The translations under genes were made by a program, and so were the position numbers. DNA of 64,000 bases from Myxococcales bacterium. Lineage in GTDB: Bacteria; Myxococcota_A; Polyangia; Polyangiales; Polyangiaceae. Positions 31,501-38,430 of the stretch are shown here, in pieces. Numbering within the stretch: position 1 is the first letter of the stretch; the number at the start of each line of letters is the position of its first letter. Location: positions 124,001 to 188,000 of the forward strand of contig JAEUKE010000207.1 of the NCBI GenBank assembly GCA_016794345.1. Reading direction: 5' to 3'. The notes under the pieces were generated by a model. The model had not been told where the DNA came from and did not search any database. It saw nothing but the letters and a program-made list of their open reading frames with translations.

Positions 31501-34500
31501 TCAGAACGTGGTCGGGCCCCGCCAGCCGCCGCCGCCGAACTGATCGATGGGGACGAGCCTGGACTCGAAGAAGACCCGGACCGACCCGACCTCGACACGG
31601 TTGTTCGTGAGGGTGAAGGGGACCTTCCGAGTCTGGCCGCCGGGCAGGGTGATCGTGAGCTCACCGGTGACCGGGATCTTCGAGCCGTCGGTCGAGGCGC
31701 GGACCACCTCGAGCGCCAGGTTGCCGTTCTGCAGGCCGCTCACCGCGATTGTCTCCGTGCTCGTGCTGCCGGCATCCTTCGCGGTCACGCCGATCGACGG
31801 GACCGTCGAGCCGAGCCAGGAGAAGCGCCGGCCATTTTTGTCCACGAGGGCGAGGTCGAGATCGACCGGCGCGCTCCAGGTCGCCGTGACGCGGAGGTCT
31901 CCGAGGAGGGCCGGCACGTCGTTCAGCTTGAGGTCGCGGGCGGTCGTGTCGATGCGGTCGCGGATGCTCGAGGGGGCGTTGCTGACGATGGTTCGTGACA
32001 GATCCGTCAGGCCTTGCTCCCCGGAGCAGCGGACCGCCGCCGCGACCGTCTTGAGGTCGCCCACGTCGAGGTCCGCCAGCGCGAGCCGGTGCTGGCAGGC
32101 GAGGTCCGGCGCGCCGAGCTGGGTGAACGCGCTCGCCAGGCGGCGCTGCACGTTCTTGTCGCCCGGGCGCACGTCCGAGAGGCCGGAGAGGATGCGCATG
32201 GCGCGCGAGCGGTCGCCGTTCATCGCCGCGAGGTCGGCGCGAGCGAGGAGCGCGTCGGGGTCGAGCGCGTCGCGTTCGCTCCACTTCGCGGTCAGCTCCT
32301 GCGCCTCACCGATCCGGCCCGAGGCCATGAGCGCCTTGTAGAGCGCCACCGTGCGGTCGCGGCTGTCGGGCGCGGACTTCTGCGCGGTCTCCGCCTCGGC
32401 GAGCAGGTTCGCGACCTCCTTGGCGAGCGCGTTGTCGGCGCTGAACGTCGCCTTGCGATCGAAGACCCGGCGCATCGGGACGAGGTTGGGCTGCGGACGC
32501 GGGCGGCGGCGCTGGTCGTCGCGACCCCAGCCGGGGCTGAACGGGTCGTCGGCGGGTTGATTCGTGGGCTTCGCGGCCTTCGCCGGGGGTGCAGGCGCCG
32601 CCGCTTCGGCGGCCGGGGCGCTGGTGGGGGCGGGCCTGGCGAGGCCGCCCGAGGCGCGGCTGCCGCCGCCGCCGGAGGGCCCGAAGCCCGCGCCGACGTC
32701 GCCCTTGGCCTTCTTGTCCGCGAGGTCGAGCCCGGTGGAGTCCTCCTCCTTTGCGGCCTCGTTCTCGGCGGTCTGAAGCTCGTCTTCGCCCTCCGCGTCG
32801 GCGCTCGAGCTCTGCGCGCCCGACTCACCGCTGAAGCTGGAGGTCGAGGTCTTGCGGTCGAGGCCAAACGCCTTGTCCATCGCCTCGCTCTCGAGCACGA
32901 GGAGCGACGTGTGGCGGCTCGCCACCTGGAAGTGTTTCGAGAGCGCGACGATGCGCTCGCGGTCGTCGGCCACGCCGGCCGTCTCGAGCTCGTTGATCTT
33001 GGCCGACGCGAAGAGCCGGGGGACGAACGCGTTGCCGGCGTTCGTCGTCGACGCGATGTTGGCCGGGTACTTCTGCTCGAAGCGATCGCGGCCGATGCGG
33101 CCGCGCACCACGACGTCGCCCTTGACCTCTTTGCCGCCCGTCATCCGGGCGAAGACGAAGGCCTCGCCGCCGGCGGGGATCGGGTCGACCCGGACGGGCG
33201 TGACCTCGGCGAGCCCGGGCGGGAGCACGACCTCGATGTCGGAGAGAACCGAGCCGTAGGCGGAGGCGAGGACGTTCACCGCCGCCGTGCCGACCGTCTC
33301 TCCGGGGACGAACGGGACCACGACGCCGTTGCCGCCCCGGGCCAGCGCGCCGAGCGTGGTGGTATCCGCGTCCGACCCGAGCGCCACGGCAATGACAGAA
33401 CCGTCACCGCCAGGCAGCGTGTGTCGAACCGCGCTCTCGAGCGAGGCGGCCTTGGTCGGGCCGACCGTGGGCGTTCCGTCTCCGAGGTAGATGATGCGCA
33501 GCTCCTTGCCCGCGGCGGTGCTCGCCGCATGGCGCGCGGCCTTCACCGCGGCCAGGAGGTTCGAGCCGCCCTCGGGGTCGATCGCCCCGAGGAAGGCGTC
33601 GACCTGACCGGCGGCCTCGGCGCCAGGCGCGGAGGGGGCCGGGATTGTCCGCGCCGTCGAGGCGCCCATCGCCTGGCACGTCGTGTCGCACGCGAGCAGG
33701 AGGAAGCTGTCGCGCCGGTCCATCTCCTTCACGACGTTCGATGCGAGCTGGCGGGCACGGGCGTATCGCTCCCCGACCATCGAGCGAGACGAGTCCACCA
33801 CGATGACGTGGAGGCGCTCGCGGCCCTCGGGGAAGCGCGGGAGCTTCGGTCGAAGCGAGAGGGCGACGAACGGCCGCGTGTCGTCGACGAAGGCCTTCGC
33901 CTCGGCCTCGGCCTGCTTGGCGCGGTCACCGGAGGTCACGGCGCCGGTCGCCGGCTTGCCCGACGAGATCTTGTCGTTCGAGGAGATCGCCGGCGTCTGG
34001 TTGGTCGCCGTCGTGGTGCTCGGCGACGCCTCGAAGGCCCAGGCCGTCAGCTCCGCCTTGCGATCCGGCAGGGCGTATTCGATGGTGAGGTCGCCAGCCG
34101 GGACGAAGCCCTTCTCGTTCATGACGAAACGGTCACCGCCGCTCGAGGAGTCGGCCTTGGTGAGCTGGTAGCCGCGCTGCTCGACACCGAACGAAGCGTC
34201 GTTGCCGAGGACCTGCACGTCGAAGGAGAAGTCGTCGATCTTCGTGCTGCCGCTCGCGTCGTGAGCGAGCGGGTACGAGAAGCGCCGCACGCCGCCAGAC
34301 TGGGGCACCGTCTGCGTGTACGAGAGCACGACGCGGCGCGAGCCCTTCTTCGGGATCGGGAAGATGCGGAGCTCGAAGCGCCCGCCGCGCTGCCACTCGA
34401 GCAGCGCCGGGTCGCGCCACGGGCCGGGCACCCAGACGATCTCTTCGCGAGGCCGCGGGGTCTTCGGCGCCGCGTTCTGAATCACGCCGCGCCAGATCGC

Positions 34501-36240
34501 CGCGCCGCGGTCGCGGTCGACGAATGCGCCGGAGCGCAGCTGCCCGTCAACCTCGAGCGAGAGGTTCTCGATCTGCGCGTCGGGCGGGAGCGGGAAGCGG
34601 AAGATGCCCTCGAGCTCCTCGTCGGTCTGGTTCGTGAACGTCTCGTCCACCTCGACGCGCGCCACGAGATCGACGACGCGCACCTTCACCGCGGCCTTCT
34701 CGAGCTTCACGGCCTTGACGCGCTCGGTCTGCTCCCCCGGCTTCTTCGCGCGGAGCTCGCCGAGGCCGCGGAGCGCGAGCGCCTCCTCGGTCTTCGGGCC
34801 TTCGGTCGTCCAGGCGATGCTGTCGCTCAGGTTCGCGTTCGAGGCGACGACGGGCTCGCCGCTTCCTTCGACTGTCGCCTCCTCGCCCGAGCGGACCTTC
34901 ACCGTCTTGCCCGAGGCGCTGGTGACGTCGACCCAGCCGCGAACGACCTCCACCGAGGCGCGGCGGTCGGTGACGGTGGCGGCGACCTTCGTGTTGGGGA
35001 CGGTGACCTCACCCTGCGGGAGGATGAGCTTCGCCGGCTGCGCGCCCGCGACCTCCTTCACCTCCGCGACGACGAGGCCACGCTCGATCTTCGCTTGGCG
35101 CGTGGTCCCTGCCGGGAGCACGACCTCCGAGTTGCGGTCGATGGCGATCCAGGAGTCGTCCGCGAGCTTGATGCGCGCCCGCGTCTTGGAGTCCGTCTTC
35201 AAAGTCGAGCCGGGCTCGATCGTCGCGCCCTGCGCCACGGTCTTGCAGCCGTCCTTGCAGACCTCGAGGCCCTCGCCGCCGTCGGACGCGGCCCGGCTCA
35301 GGACGGCGACCGTGCCGCTCCATGCGCCCTCCGAAAACGCGGTCTCGGTCGCGTTTTCGGTCAGGCCGTCTTTCTTGATGAGGAAGCCGCCGACCGCCGC
35401 GGCGGCGGCCATGCCGCCGACGAGCGCGGCCAGGAAGCCCTTGCGACGGAAGAGCGAGACCACCGGCGCGCTCTGCGCGGGTGAGGTCGCGACCTTCTTC
35501 TCCGGCGCGCGGACGTCGAGGTCCGGGACTCGCGCCTCGGCCGGACGGGCGCTGCCAGCCGACGGCTGCGTGCTGAAGCCCCCCGACGGGCCGGTGTTGT
35601 TGCGTCCCGTCACGGCGTCCACCGGGCGCCCGGCCTCGGACTCGGCCGGCGCGGAGACGGGGGTGACGTGGGTGGCCGGCGCGCTGCGGCGGTCGAGGAC
35701 AGCCGAGAGCGGGACGGTCTTCACCGTGGGCACGAAGGGGTCGTCGATCTTCTCGGGCAACGGCTTGGGCGCCGCGGGCTGCGGCGCGGCAGCGGCGTCC
35801 TCCTCGGCGAACCGGTTCGGCTCGAAGACGGTGGCGTTGTTGTCGACCGCGGGCTCCGCCGCGGCGCCGGCGAACACCGGCTGCTCGGCGAGCATGGTCG
35901 GCGCGGTCGGGTCGGCGGACGTGGCCGTCATGACGGCGCTCGTGCGCGGCGCGGCGACGGAGGCGGGCCCCGAGAGCGTGATCGACTGGCTCGGCTGCGG
36001 CCCTTCAGGGCGCAGATCGAGGACGTGAGCGAGGATGCGCTCGGGGTCGAGATCGGCGGGGCGGAAGTCGCCGCCCGCGTGCGCGACCATCTCCGCCACC
36101 TGCTCCGCTTCGTAGCGGAGGTCGCGGCAGCGATCACAGTCGGCGATGTGGTCGACGATCCTGGTGGGAGCTTGGCCTTCGAGGATGTCGGCCATCGACT
36201 CCTCGACTTCGCGGCACAGTTCTTCGTTGTTGCTGTTCAT
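31501..36240 (-). CDS. Anti-sigma zinc-finger / FecR / VIT / vWA transmembrane protein
   Basis: 1579 residues. Residues 1-50 carry a ZAS-type zinc motif (C9, H31, C35, C38 in HIADCDRCRDL). After an acidic/Pro-rich segment comes one TM (about 268-288, AALVGGMAAAAAVGG). Outside it follow a FecR-like domain (about 305-460), a VIT domain (about 505-640, LEGIFRFPLPPDAQIENLSL), a vWA domain (about 805-1000) with MIDAS VVDSSRSM at 816-820, then Ser/Asp/Pro-rich linkers, a TPR-like part and a C-terminal beta domain. It lies 24 bases after an ECF sigma gene, so it is probably the cognate anti-sigma. The MIDAS and VIT parts suggest sensing of an extracellular ligand (inference). Confidence 0.88.
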   Translation of the reverse strand: MNSNNEELCREVEESMADILEGQAPTRIVDHIADCDRCRDLRYEAEQVAEMVAHAGGDFRPADLDPERILAHVLDLRPEGPQPSQSITLSGPASVAAPRTSAVMTATSADPTAPTMLAEQPVFAGAAAEPAVDNNATVFEPNRFAEEDAAAAPQPAAPKPLPEKIDDPFVPTVKTVPLSAVLDRRSAPATHVTPVSAPAESEAGRPVDAVTGRNNTGPSGGFSTQPSAGSARPAEARVPDLDVRAPEKKVATSPAQSAPVVSLFRRKGFLAALVGGMAAAAAVGGFLIKKDGLTENATETAFSEGAWSGTVAVLSRAASDGGEGLEVCKDGCKTVAQGATIEPGSTLKTDSKTRARIKLADDSWIAIDRNSEVVLPAGTTRQAKIERGLVVAEVKEVAGAQPAKLILPQGEVTVPNTKVAATVTDRRASVEVVRGWVDVTSASGKTVKVRSGEEATVEGSGEPVVASNANLSDSIAWTTEGPKTEEALALRGLGELRAKKPGEQTERVKAVKLEKAAVKVRVVDLVARVEVDETFTNQTDEELEGIFRFPLPPDAQIENLSLEVDGQLRSGAFVDRDRGAAIWRGVIQNAAPKTPRPREEIVWVPGPWRDPALLEWQRGGRFELRIFPIPKKGSRRVVLSYTQTVPQSGGVRRFSYPLAHDASGSTKIDDFSFDVQVLGNDASFGVEQRGYQLTKADSSSGGDRFVMNEKGFVPAGDLTIEYALPDRKAELTAWAFEASPSTTTATNQTPAISSNDKISSGKPATGAVTSGDRAKQAEAEAKAFVDDTRPFVALSLRPKLPRFPEGRERLHVIVVDSSRSMVGERYARARQLASNVVKEMDRRDSFLLLACDTTCQAMGASTARTIPAPSAPGAEAAGQVDAFLGAIDPEGGSNLLAAVKAARHAASTAAGKELRIIYLGDGTPTVGPTKAASLESAVRHTLPGGDGSVIAVALGSDADTTTLGALARGGNGVVVPFVPGETVGTAAVNVLASAYGSVLSDIEVVLPPGLAEVTPVRVDPIPAGGEAFVFARMTGGKEVKGDVVVRGRIGRDRFEQKYPANIASTTNAGNAFVPRLFASAKINELETAGVADDRERIVALSKHFQVASRHTSLLVLESEAMDKAFGLDRKTSTSSFSGESGAQSSSADAEGEDELQTAENEAAKEEDSTGLDLADKKAKGDVGAGFGPSGGGGSRASGGLARPAPTSAPAAEAAAPAPPAKAAKPTNQPADDPFSPGWGRDDQRRRPRPQPNLVPMRRVFDRKATFSADNALAKEVANLLAEAETAQKSAPDSRDRTVALYKALMASGRIGEAQELTAKWSERDALDPDALLARADLAAMNGDRSRAMRILSGLSDVRPGDKNVQRRLASAFTQLGAPDLACQHRLALADLDVGDLKTVAAAVRCSGEQGLTDLSRTIVSNAPSSIRDRIDTTARDLKLNDVPALLGDLRVTATWSAPVDLDLALVDKNGRRFSWLGSTVPSIGVTAKDAGSTSTETIAVSGLQNGNLALEVVRASTDGSKIPVTGELTITLPGGQTRKVPFTLTNNRVEVGSVRVFFESRLVPIDQFGGGGWRGPTTF

Positions 36241-36264
36241 GACCGTGTTCCTCCGACCATCCCG

Positions 36265-36849
36265 TCACACGTCCGCGAGGGACTCTCTGAGCCTGATCAA
36301 GGCGCGGCTGACTCGCTTGCGCGCCGCCGCCTCGTCGACGCCACACGCCACCGCGACCTCGCGGAAGCTCATGCCTGCGTCGTAACGGAGCACCACCGCC
36401 TCACGCTCGCTGGGCTTGAGCTGCGCGAGGGCGTTGCGCGCTCGAACCGCACGCTCGCGCTCGATGGCGAGCTCGCCGGCGTCGGCGCCTCGCCCCGTGT
36501 CGTGCACGAGCCGAAGGCGAGCCTGCCGCCGGTTCTTCATCTCGTTGTGCCGGCCGCATATCCGCCGCGCGATGCCGAAGAGCCACGCGCGGATCGATCC
36601 TTCGAACCGGAACCCGGGGAAGCCGTCGTAGGCGGCGAGCAGGGTCTCCTGCACCAGCTCCTCCGCCTCCGCCTGGGAGCCAGTCAGCGCGGTGCAGAGC
36701 CGCCCGAGCGGGGCCGAATAGGCTCGGGTACAACGGGCGAGAGCCTCCTTGTACCGTGACTCCGCGATCAGACCCTCGATCTCGGCGGCCTCGTCGGCCG
36801 TCTCGGTTCGCGCGACCGCCTTCACCATCTTACCCTCATCGTCCGTCAT
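36265..36849 (-). CDS. ECF-type RNA polymerase sigma factor
   Basis: About 194 residues from ATG 36849; ATG 36828 has a better ribosome-binding site (GAGG 5 bases upstream) and may be the true start. Region 2 (AEELVQETLLAAYDGFPGFRFEGSIRAWLFGIARRI) and region 4 (LAQLKPSEREAVVLRYDAGMSFREVAVACGVDEAAARKRVSRAL) are clear. It precedes the zinc-finger anti-sigma/vWA gene by 24 bases, the usual arrangement of a sigma/anti-sigma pair. Confidence 0.93.
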   Translation of the reverse strand: MTDDEGKMVKAVARTETADEAAEIEGLIAESRYKEALARCTRAYSAPLGRLCTALTGSQAEAEELVQETLLAAYDGFPGFRFEGSIRAWLFGIARRICGRHNEMKNRRQARLRLVHDTGRGADAGELAIERERAVRARNALAQLKPSEREAVVLRYDAGMSFREVAVACGVDEAAARKRVSRALIRLRESLADV

Positions 36850-37050
36850 GTGCCTGTGGCCCGAAGGTTCGTGACTGTCTGTTTGGAGGCGTGCGGAAAG
36901 GATCGCATCGCCCCGTTCGTACTCGGGACGACCGAGATTCCCCGCTGACCCCGGCGCTGGCCATCCAATCAGCTGGCCTGGGCCCACGACTTGCAGTGCG
37001 CTCTCTCCGACGACCGCTTAGAATCGGTCGTCGGTAGGGAGCCGTCAGCC

Positions 37051-38430
37051 ATGACCAACGCATTTGCCTCTCGATTCGCACCCTCACGAGTGCTCGCGTG
37101 CGCCCGTGACCTGATCACCCAACGGAGCGGGTCGACAGAAGGCTACACGTGGAGCGTGAACGGCCGTCAACACCCCCTGCTGTCGACGTTGCTCGCGGCG
37201 GCGCTCGTGGTGGGCGGCGCCGGGACGGCGTCCGCTCAGCAAGCGCCCGCAGGCAAGCAACCGGCAGGGCAGAAGGCCCCCGCCAAACCCGCGCAGGCAG
37301 CCAAGCCCGCCAAACCCAAGGCGCCCGCGAAGGCGGACGACATCGATCCCGTCGAGGAGGAAGCGCCGGAGGTCCGAGCGCAGCGGGGCATCGTGGTCCT
37401 GCAGCGCGCCGGACAGCCCCTCGGGCTCGGCGTGGTCCTCGGTGGCGACGGTCGCATCCTCAGCGCGCTCTCCCCTCTCGGCTCGGGGAACGAGCTCGAG
37501 GCGAAGTTTGCTGACGATACTGTCCACAAGGTCAAGCTCGGCCACCACGACCGCATCTGGGACCTCGCGCTGCTCGTCCCGCAGTCGGGCAAGTGGACGG
37601 ATGGCCTCGGCGCCTCGAGCGCCGACCCGCTACGGGAGGACGCGACGGTCCGCGCGTTCTCCGCGGCGACGAAGGGCAAGCCCGTCGCGTCGCCGGTCGA
37701 TCTCCGGTCGCGGCGCTCGCTCATCGGCGGCGACGACCAGACGCTCGCGAACGCGATCGAGCTCGGCAGCCGCATCAACGCGCGTGACCTGGGCTCCCCG
37801 CTCATCGACGAGAAGGGTCGCGTCGTCGGCATCCTCGGCCGGGCCTGCCTGCCAATCGAGGGAAAGCCGTGCTCGCCGGTCGCCTTCGGCGTCCCGGTCC
37901 CGATCATCAAGTCGTTCCTCAAGAGCGTGCCGCCCGACGCCGTCCCGCCGGTCCCGTGGCTGGGCGTCCAGGGCGTGTCCGAAGCGACCCCGGTCGTGAA
38001 GGGCGTGCGCCTCCTCTCGATCGCCAAGAACAGCCCCGCGGCGAACGCGAAGCTCAAGGCGGGCGAGAAGGGCACCGGCGACCTCATCGTCGCGGTGGGC
38101 GGCCAGCCCGTCACCTCGCCGGAAGAGCTCGCCTCGGAGATCAAGAAACACGCGATCGGCGAGAAGGTCCCGCTCACGGTGTTCAACAAGGGCGGCTACA
38201 AGAACGTCGACGTCGTGCTCCGCGCGCCGCCCGACCCCGCGAAGCCGGCAGAGCCGAAGGCGAAGCTCGTCGACAAGCCGTCCGCGCCCGCCGCGCCGCC
38301 CAAGAAGAAGGGCGAGAAGGCGGGGAAGCCCGGAAAGCCGGCAGCCAAGCCCAAGGCCAAGCCCGCCGCGGAGGAGTCCGAGCAGTCCGGTCCGCCCGCC
38401 GAGAACGACCCCTTCAGCGAGCAGCTCTGA
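37051..38430 (+). CDS. Trypsin-fold/PDZ protein lacking catalytic residues (pseudo-HtrA)
   Basis: About 459 residues from ATG 37051 (GGGAG 9 bases upstream); GTG 37156 would give a shorter signal peptide. A secretion signal (LLSTLLAAALVVGGAG) is followed by Lys/Ala/Pro sequence, an HtrA-like barrel and one PDZ domain (about 310-400). The Asp motif is present (DRIWDLALLV), but the His region is SALSPLGSG and the Ser motif reads ARDLGSPLID rather than GNSGGPL. It is therefore a probable pseudoprotease with scaffold or regulatory roles. A Lys/Pro-rich tail follows. The gene is divergent from the ECF sigma gene. Confidence 0.82.
   Translation: MTNAFASRFAPSRVLACARDLITQRSGSTEGYTWSVNGRQHPLLSTLLAAALVVGGAGTASAQQAPAGKQPAGQKAPAKPAQAAKPAKPKAPAKADDIDPVEEEAPEVRAQRGIVVLQRAGQPLGLGVVLGGDGRILSALSPLGSGNELEAKFADDTVHKVKLGHHDRIWDLALLVPQSGKWTDGLGASSADPLREDATVRAFSAATKGKPVASPVDLRSRRSLIGGDDQTLANAIELGSRINARDLGSPLIDEKGRVVGILGRACLPIEGKPCSPVAFGVPVPIIKSFLKSVPPDAVPPVPWLGVQGVSEATPVVKGVRLLSIAKNSPAANAKLKAGEKGTGDLIVAVGGQPVTSPEELASEIKKHAIGEKVPLTVFNKGGYKNVDVVLRAPPDPAKPAEPKAKLVDKPSAPAAPPKKKGEKAGKPGKPAAKPKAKPAAEESEQSGPPAENDPFSEQL

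Follow-up and report, generated by a model that had tools for sequence, protein, structure and literature searches.

The window analysed here is a stretch of 64,000 nucleotides (nt) from a Myxococcales bacterium of the family Polyangiaceae (assembly GCA_016794345.1, contig JAEUKE010000207.1, positions 124,001 to 188,000). In this text, we will focus on two adjacent genes of its reverse strand, one coding for a sigma factor of the extracytoplasmic function (ECF) class, as indicated by regions 2 and 4 present without other sigma regions (Pfam), and the following one for a membrane protein of 1579 residues (Table 1). A first-pass annotation had placed the sigma gene 24 bases upstream of the longer gene, which is confirmed by the coordinates of the open reading frames (24 nt between the end of the former, 36265, and the start of the latter, 36240). 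That annotation had also described the 1579-residue protein as joining a zinc motif (C9/H31/C35/C38) and one membrane span to FecR, VIT and vWA domains, the last with an intact metal ion-dependent adhesion site (MIDAS), followed by TPR-like sequence and a C-terminal beta domain. All these parts were recovered: the zinc motif and the span are both present, with profiles supporting an anti-sigma domain of class I, the FecR, VIT and vWA domains were found by Pfam and in a structural model, and the TPR and beta parts in an AlphaFold2 model.

Table 1. Features of the sigma/anti-sigma locus and its neighbour, in window coordinates
Feature	Coordinates	Strand	Assignment and evidence
VIT/vWA anti-sigma gene	31501..36240	-	predicted anti-sigma factor anchored in the membrane, 1579 aa; ectodomain FecR-VIT-vWA-TPR-beta
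ECF sigma gene	36265..36828	-	Sigma70_r2 (E 4.6e-11) and Sigma70_r4_2 (E 1.4e-12), Pfam; start revised (probable)
Predicted autoregulatory promoter	36847..36876	-	AGTCACGAACCTTCGGGCCACAGGCACATG; -35 GTCACGAA, -10 CACATG
Class I zinc anti-sigma domain	36016..36240	-	residues 1-75; C9, H31, C35, C38
Cytoplasmic linker, Pro/Ala/Ser/Thr-rich	35449..36015	-	residues ~76-264; composition, length range
Single membrane span	35377..35439	-	residues 268-288; hydropathy; FRRKGF in front of it (positive inside)
FecR domain	34930..35205	-	residues 346-437; Pfam E 4e-9; fold match to PupR
VIT domain	34318..34701	-	residues 514-641; Pfam E 7.2e-14
vWA domain	33322..33807	-	residues 812-973; Pfam E 6.9e-12; MIDAS complete
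TPR-type helical repeat	31933..32430	-	residues ~1271-1436; AlphaFold2 model; Foldseek
C-terminal beta-sandwich	31549..31896	-	residues ~1449-1564; AlphaFold2 model
Divergent exported HtrA-type pseudoprotease with PDZ	36991..38430	+	Trypsin_2 and PDZ (Pfam)

The assignment of the N-terminus to the class I anti-sigma domains (ASDI) is well supported by sequence profiles. A profile built from 15 N-termini of the family matches RsiW (5wuq) with an E-value of 2.8e-5, and RsrA weakly, while the Pfam zf-HC2 domain was detected in 13 of these 15 members; taken by itself, the window protein falls under the Pfam cut-off (14.8 vs 22.2 bits). The RsiW match together with zf-HC2 constitutes the best evidence for the N-terminus as a predicted sigma binder. 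The four ligands C9, H31, C35 and C38 are all present in the window protein, the last three forming an HxxxCxxC motif. With a profile made from zinc-bearing members only, the domain was recovered in almost every full-length orthologue, among them 12 that lack the HxxxCxxC ligands, and the zinc is therefore probably structural, as is also assumed for the motif of anti-sigma groups mixing zinc and zinc-less members (PMC7406223). Downstream of this domain, the linker measures between 14 and 245 residues in 71 sequences (median 79), and reaches 196 in the window protein, where Pro, Ala, Ser and Thr are abundant in it. Hydropathy reveals a sole strong membrane span, at about residues 268-288. Since a cytoplasmic anti-sigma domain is followed by one span in a diderm bacterium, the large C-terminal part would lie on the periplasmic side; an anchor for the outer membrane was not noticed in the protein.

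The FecR-VIT-vWA part of this ectodomain (residues 318-1135) was modelled from an alignment of 55 sequences with a mean per-residue confidence (pLDDT) of 89.1 and a predicted template modelling score of 0.90. The top Foldseek match of the model is human ITIH1 (6fpy, E 1.9e-27), and its FecR part matches the ectodomain of PupR (6ovk_R, E 1.2e-7) and the putative anti-sigma factor 4m0n. The MIDAS is formed by D816, S818, S820, S893 and D921, the full set being retained in 75 of 81 sequences, and two vWA cysteines in a CxxxC arrangement (C851 and C855; 33676-33690) are invariant in all 81, possibly as a disulfide or a metal site. At residues 416-417 (34990-34995), within the FecR domain, the window protein has Asn-Thr where 72 of the 81 sequences retain a Gly-Thr pair. 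FoxR undergoes self-cleavage at Gly191-Thr192. Residues 1255-1579 were modelled as a TPR solenoid followed by a beta-sandwich (pLDDT 93.8); the TPR part gives a weak Pfam TPR match at 1284-1370 and Foldseek matches to TPR proteins such as MamA, and the beta-sandwich matched no Pfam family.

With regard to distribution, public genomes were scanned with two conserved peptides as queries and one genome per species, a design that distant relatives may escape. Eighty loci were kept, all of Polyangia-type myxobacteria, the records being labelled Polyangiaceae, Sorangium, Polyangium, Minicystis, Labilithrix, Sandaracinaceae, Kofleriaceae or, less exactly, Myxococcota/delta-proteobacteria. In a set of 96 genomes drawn from the whole phylum, no match stronger than 1e-70 fell outside the same order. 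In the near relatives, all modules align end to end and an ECF gene lies directly upstream in 10 out of the 10 loci reaching the gene start, the first-pass annotation having proposed a search for homologues that keep both the modules and the adjacent sigma gene. That annotation had named homologues never found beside an ECF gene as the finding that would speak against it; in the public genomes, an ECF gene is directly upstream in 64 of the 68 loci with more than 700 bases of upstream sequence. Two of the exceptions are L128, where tblastn detects a sigma-like stretch upstream, and L139, which has no detectable anti-sigma domain. As some 62 Sigma70_r4_2 genes are spread over the 9.7 Mb of the window's own genome, the chance of an ECF gene standing immediately upstream is well under 1% per locus.

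The same genomes contain many FecR-VIT-vWA paralogues devoid of a sigma gene, several of them lipoprotein-like. The FecR domain, which had been taken as a sign of sigma control, is thus present as described, but by itself says little, because such sigma-free paralogues are common. In a tree of the VIT-vWA region, the proteins bearing the anti-sigma domain form one clade, with a single nested sigma-free member on a long branch (L270), in which anti-sigma domain and sigma are both absent; this joint absence suggests that both are retained, or disappear, together. Sigma-free, lipoprotein-like relatives (L271 and L272) neighbour the clade. The simplest reading of this tree, whose root is unfixed, would be that an anti-sigma domain captured the VIT-vWA module once and that a single loss followed, a direction that we infer.

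A second lineage was noticed in three genomes of the window's genus, where an ECF gene accompanies a protein with a membrane span, FecR, VIT and vWA (L046, 77-5949; L047, 6659-12585; L053, 6209-11976). The N-terminus of these proteins is different, short and zinc-less.

Upstream of the sigma genes, a promoter of consensus GGTCACGAA-N15-SCACNTG is predicted. The element reads CGGTCACGAA...SCACATG and overlaps the called start codon, and GTCAC-N18-CAC is conserved upstream of most orthologous ECF genes. The best bipartite k-mer pair occurs in 26 of 63 upstream regions compared with 7-11 in shuffled controls, and the window promoter is found in its own genome at E 4.1e-4 by a model that includes it. 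In the window, the called ATG (36849) falls within the conserved -10 element, while an alternative ATG at 36826-36828 (M8) is preceded by GAGGG. Given the position of the promoter and of the Shine-Dalgarno sequence, the true start of the sigma gene is probably 36828 rather than 36849. A Shine-Dalgarno-like site and a start codon follow the element in 51 of 55 loci, at a median of 21 nt.

A sequence model of this promoter (R1) was run against 13 and 97 genomes. Of the hits inspected, 26 stand before the sigma gene itself, which is partly by construction, and the presence of the motif tracks that of the family across the 97 genomes (39/7/14/37, p 1.4e-8), although self promoters drive much of this association. 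A strict target set was defined by non-self hits with E ≤ 0.02 in family-bearing genomes and a start codon within 60 nt. An N-terminal hydrophobic stretch is present in 14 of its 19 proteins compared with 124 of 343 (36%) in the background (p 0.0014); this count leaves out lower-scoring loci chosen after sequence inspection (L241, L242 and L245 among them), whereas a figure of 23/31 includes loci picked in that way and is hence biased. Among the genes preceded by the motif are those for DUF2330 proteins (L219 and L223 by Pfam; L220, L252 and L253 by visible similarity), vWA proteins (L243 and L222), a DUF4139 protein (L235, with L236 alike) and small lipoproteins. In the window's own genome, the candidates are C233:63533, coding for an exported protein of 161 aa, and the lipoprotein genes C308:4535 and C212:17426, the last two below the strict threshold. 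We thus predict, with moderate confidence, a regulon of exported proteins. As a separate observation, two small lipoproteins, L242 (C212:17426 of the own genome) and L254 (G002 C51), share PWFLRPAG and a C-terminal RAACGRG, and both are preceded by a GGTCAC-type element.

The computed architecture, anti-sigma homology, pairing and promoter point to a gene pair that probably acts as a sigma/anti-sigma switch, with a sensor that would lie in the periplasm and a proteolytic release of the sigma factor. According to this proposal, residues 1-75 would keep the ECF sigma factor, expressed from the same transcript, at the inner membrane via the long and flexible cytoplasmic tether, while the periplasmic FecR domain, the VIT-vWA core with its metal site, the TPR and the beta-sandwich would monitor a protein or an envelope condition. 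A change of state would lead to cleavage of the anti-sigma factor by regulated intramembrane proteolysis, a mechanism known from RseA and E. coli FecR, and the freed sigma factor would transcribe its own operon from the promoter described above as well as a small set of genes for exported proteins. Release by proteolysis appears most likely, since a rigid signal is unlikely to pass through a variable, Pro/Ala-rich linker of 14 to 245 residues. E. coli FecR is cleaved by RseP (PMC8144685), and the site-2 protease family is encoded in the window's own genome (best E 3.1e-64). A more specific version, which we put forward as speculation and consider rather doubtful, is that the VIT-vWA head is a MIDAS-dependent periplasmic gauge of an exported protein of the regulon itself, for instance a secreted vWA or DUF2330 protein, whose loss or damage would free the sigma factor and so restore that protein; the module would have been captured once, by fusion, from a sigma-free FecR-VIT-vWA protein.

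Several observations weigh against the proposed switch. At L118 and L144, the anti-sigma domain is present with no ECF gene upstream. When sigma factor and anti-sigma domain were compared by identity correlation (mirror-tree), with distance controlled and the divergent loci left out, the partial correlation was 0.12, no higher than for other domains (0.41 for FecR), and the signal is therefore not specific to the pair. Six Labilithrix-type loci (L097, L098, L101, L126, L134 and L136) conserve the ectodomain and the anti-sigma domain but carry a divergent sigma factor, with 28% mean identity to the main group vs 51% within that group; those inspected display a different upstream element, AAAACTTTT...GCGTCC, so that sigma and promoter have changed together. 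Seven genomes that lack a strong match to the family contain motif hits as well. Finally, M50 peptidases are found almost everywhere, including all 14 control genomes, and the presence of such a protease provides weak support.

Other explanations can be set against the same data. FecR-type proteins have been shown to exert pro-sigma activity (PMC8144685), and the FecR ectodomain with its PupR-like fold would be compatible with a variant in which sigma activity depends on the cytoplasmic domain, making the protein an activator and not mainly an inhibitor. We consider this unlikely: the cytoplasmic domain is zf-HC2/RsiW-like and not of the FecR N-terminal type, for which the window protein gives no Pfam match at E ≤ 1, and no TonB-dependent receptor was found among the Pfam-scanned window neighbours (HtrA-PDZ, PP2C, TPR and 3HCDH), the wider surroundings of the orthologues not having been scanned. 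That the protein is a structural or export scaffold, whose expression alone is controlled by the ECF factor and whose anti-sigma domain is vestigial, would accord with the sigma-free paralogues of the same genomes, several being lipoprotein-like; it seems quite improbable given the conservation of the anti-sigma domain through the clade and its absence together with the sigma gene in the nested L270.

The Cys/His cluster could also be regarded as a switch sensing cytoplasmic oxidation or metal, as in RsrA and ChrR, with a separate task for the ectodomain. The window protein and most orthologues do have the four ligands, yet the zinc-less orthologues, the structural reading of mixed groups and a huge conserved ectodomain left unexplained render this very unlikely, and zinc as the sensor was rejected on account of the zinc-less orthologues. 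Least credible of all is an adhesion sensor at the cell surface relaying a ligand or contact with a partner cell, as the first-pass annotation had supposed. The MIDAS-bearing vWA and the ITIH-like core do belong to classes including adhesion proteins, but a cytoplasmic N-terminus and one inner-membrane span put the head in the periplasm, and the protein shows no anchor that would carry it to the outer membrane.

On the other side of the sigma gene, the HtrA-PDZ gene adjoins the pair in 16 of the 80 strong-match public loci, mostly of Polyangiaceae. Its product was considered as a site-1 protease and rejected, the catalytic His and Ser being missing in 17 of 17 aligned sequences; it is a possible accessory part of the sigma/anti-sigma system.

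Anti-sigma factors are a main route of envelope sensing in bacteria, and few of their ectodomains have a known signal. The present sigma/anti-sigma family, conserved across one myxobacterial order, is real and apparently undescribed: no earlier description of FecR/VIT/vWA proteins with an ECF sigma factor was found in the literature searched, the main ECF reclassification being outside its reach. An order with cultured genera (Sorangium and Polyangium) thus keeps a predicted single-gene sensor with a metal-binding head resembling adhesion proteins. A readable promoter and candidate targets make the sensed condition directly testable, and likewise what bacterial VIT-vWA and DUF2330 proteins do.

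Judged from its sequence, the family is a class I anti-sigma factor with an ITIH-like, presumably periplasmic sensor, and is not of the FecR type by its cytoplasmic domain. With RsiW/SigW and other ASDI membrane anti-sigma factors, it shares the zinc-type N-terminal domain, the single span, the gene position directly after the ECF gene and a predicted autoregulated promoter. However, the ectodomain of about 1290 residues (FecR-VIT-vWA-TPR-beta) contrasts with the short extracytoplasmic part of the RsiW class, and the cytoplasmic linker is long and variable. The likeness to the FecR/FoxR/PupR regulators lies in the membrane-adjacent FecR domain, the PupR fold match and a probable proteolytic control, whereas the cytoplasmic domain is here of the zf-HC2 type and VIT-vWA replaces the receptor-contact domain. 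Similarity to TIGR03788, a VIT-vWA sortase target of marine proteobacteria, is weak and covers vWA and the downstream region (E 8.3e-25); membership was rejected, with 87 bits for a cut-off of 552, no LPxTG, and no anti-sigma domain in TIGR03788. With regard to the promoter, ECF41 factors recognise TGTCACA-N16-CGTC (PMC3426412), and the GTCAC core of the -35 element is common to both, but here 18 nt separate it from a CAC(A)TG element, and the sigma factors of the family are short, without the ECF41 C-terminal extension. Lastly, ITIH1 (6fpy) has the same core of VIT and MIDAS-bearing vWA, at an identity of only 14%, whereas in the myxobacterial family this core is predicted to be linked to an anti-sigma domain and anchored at the inner membrane of a bacterium.
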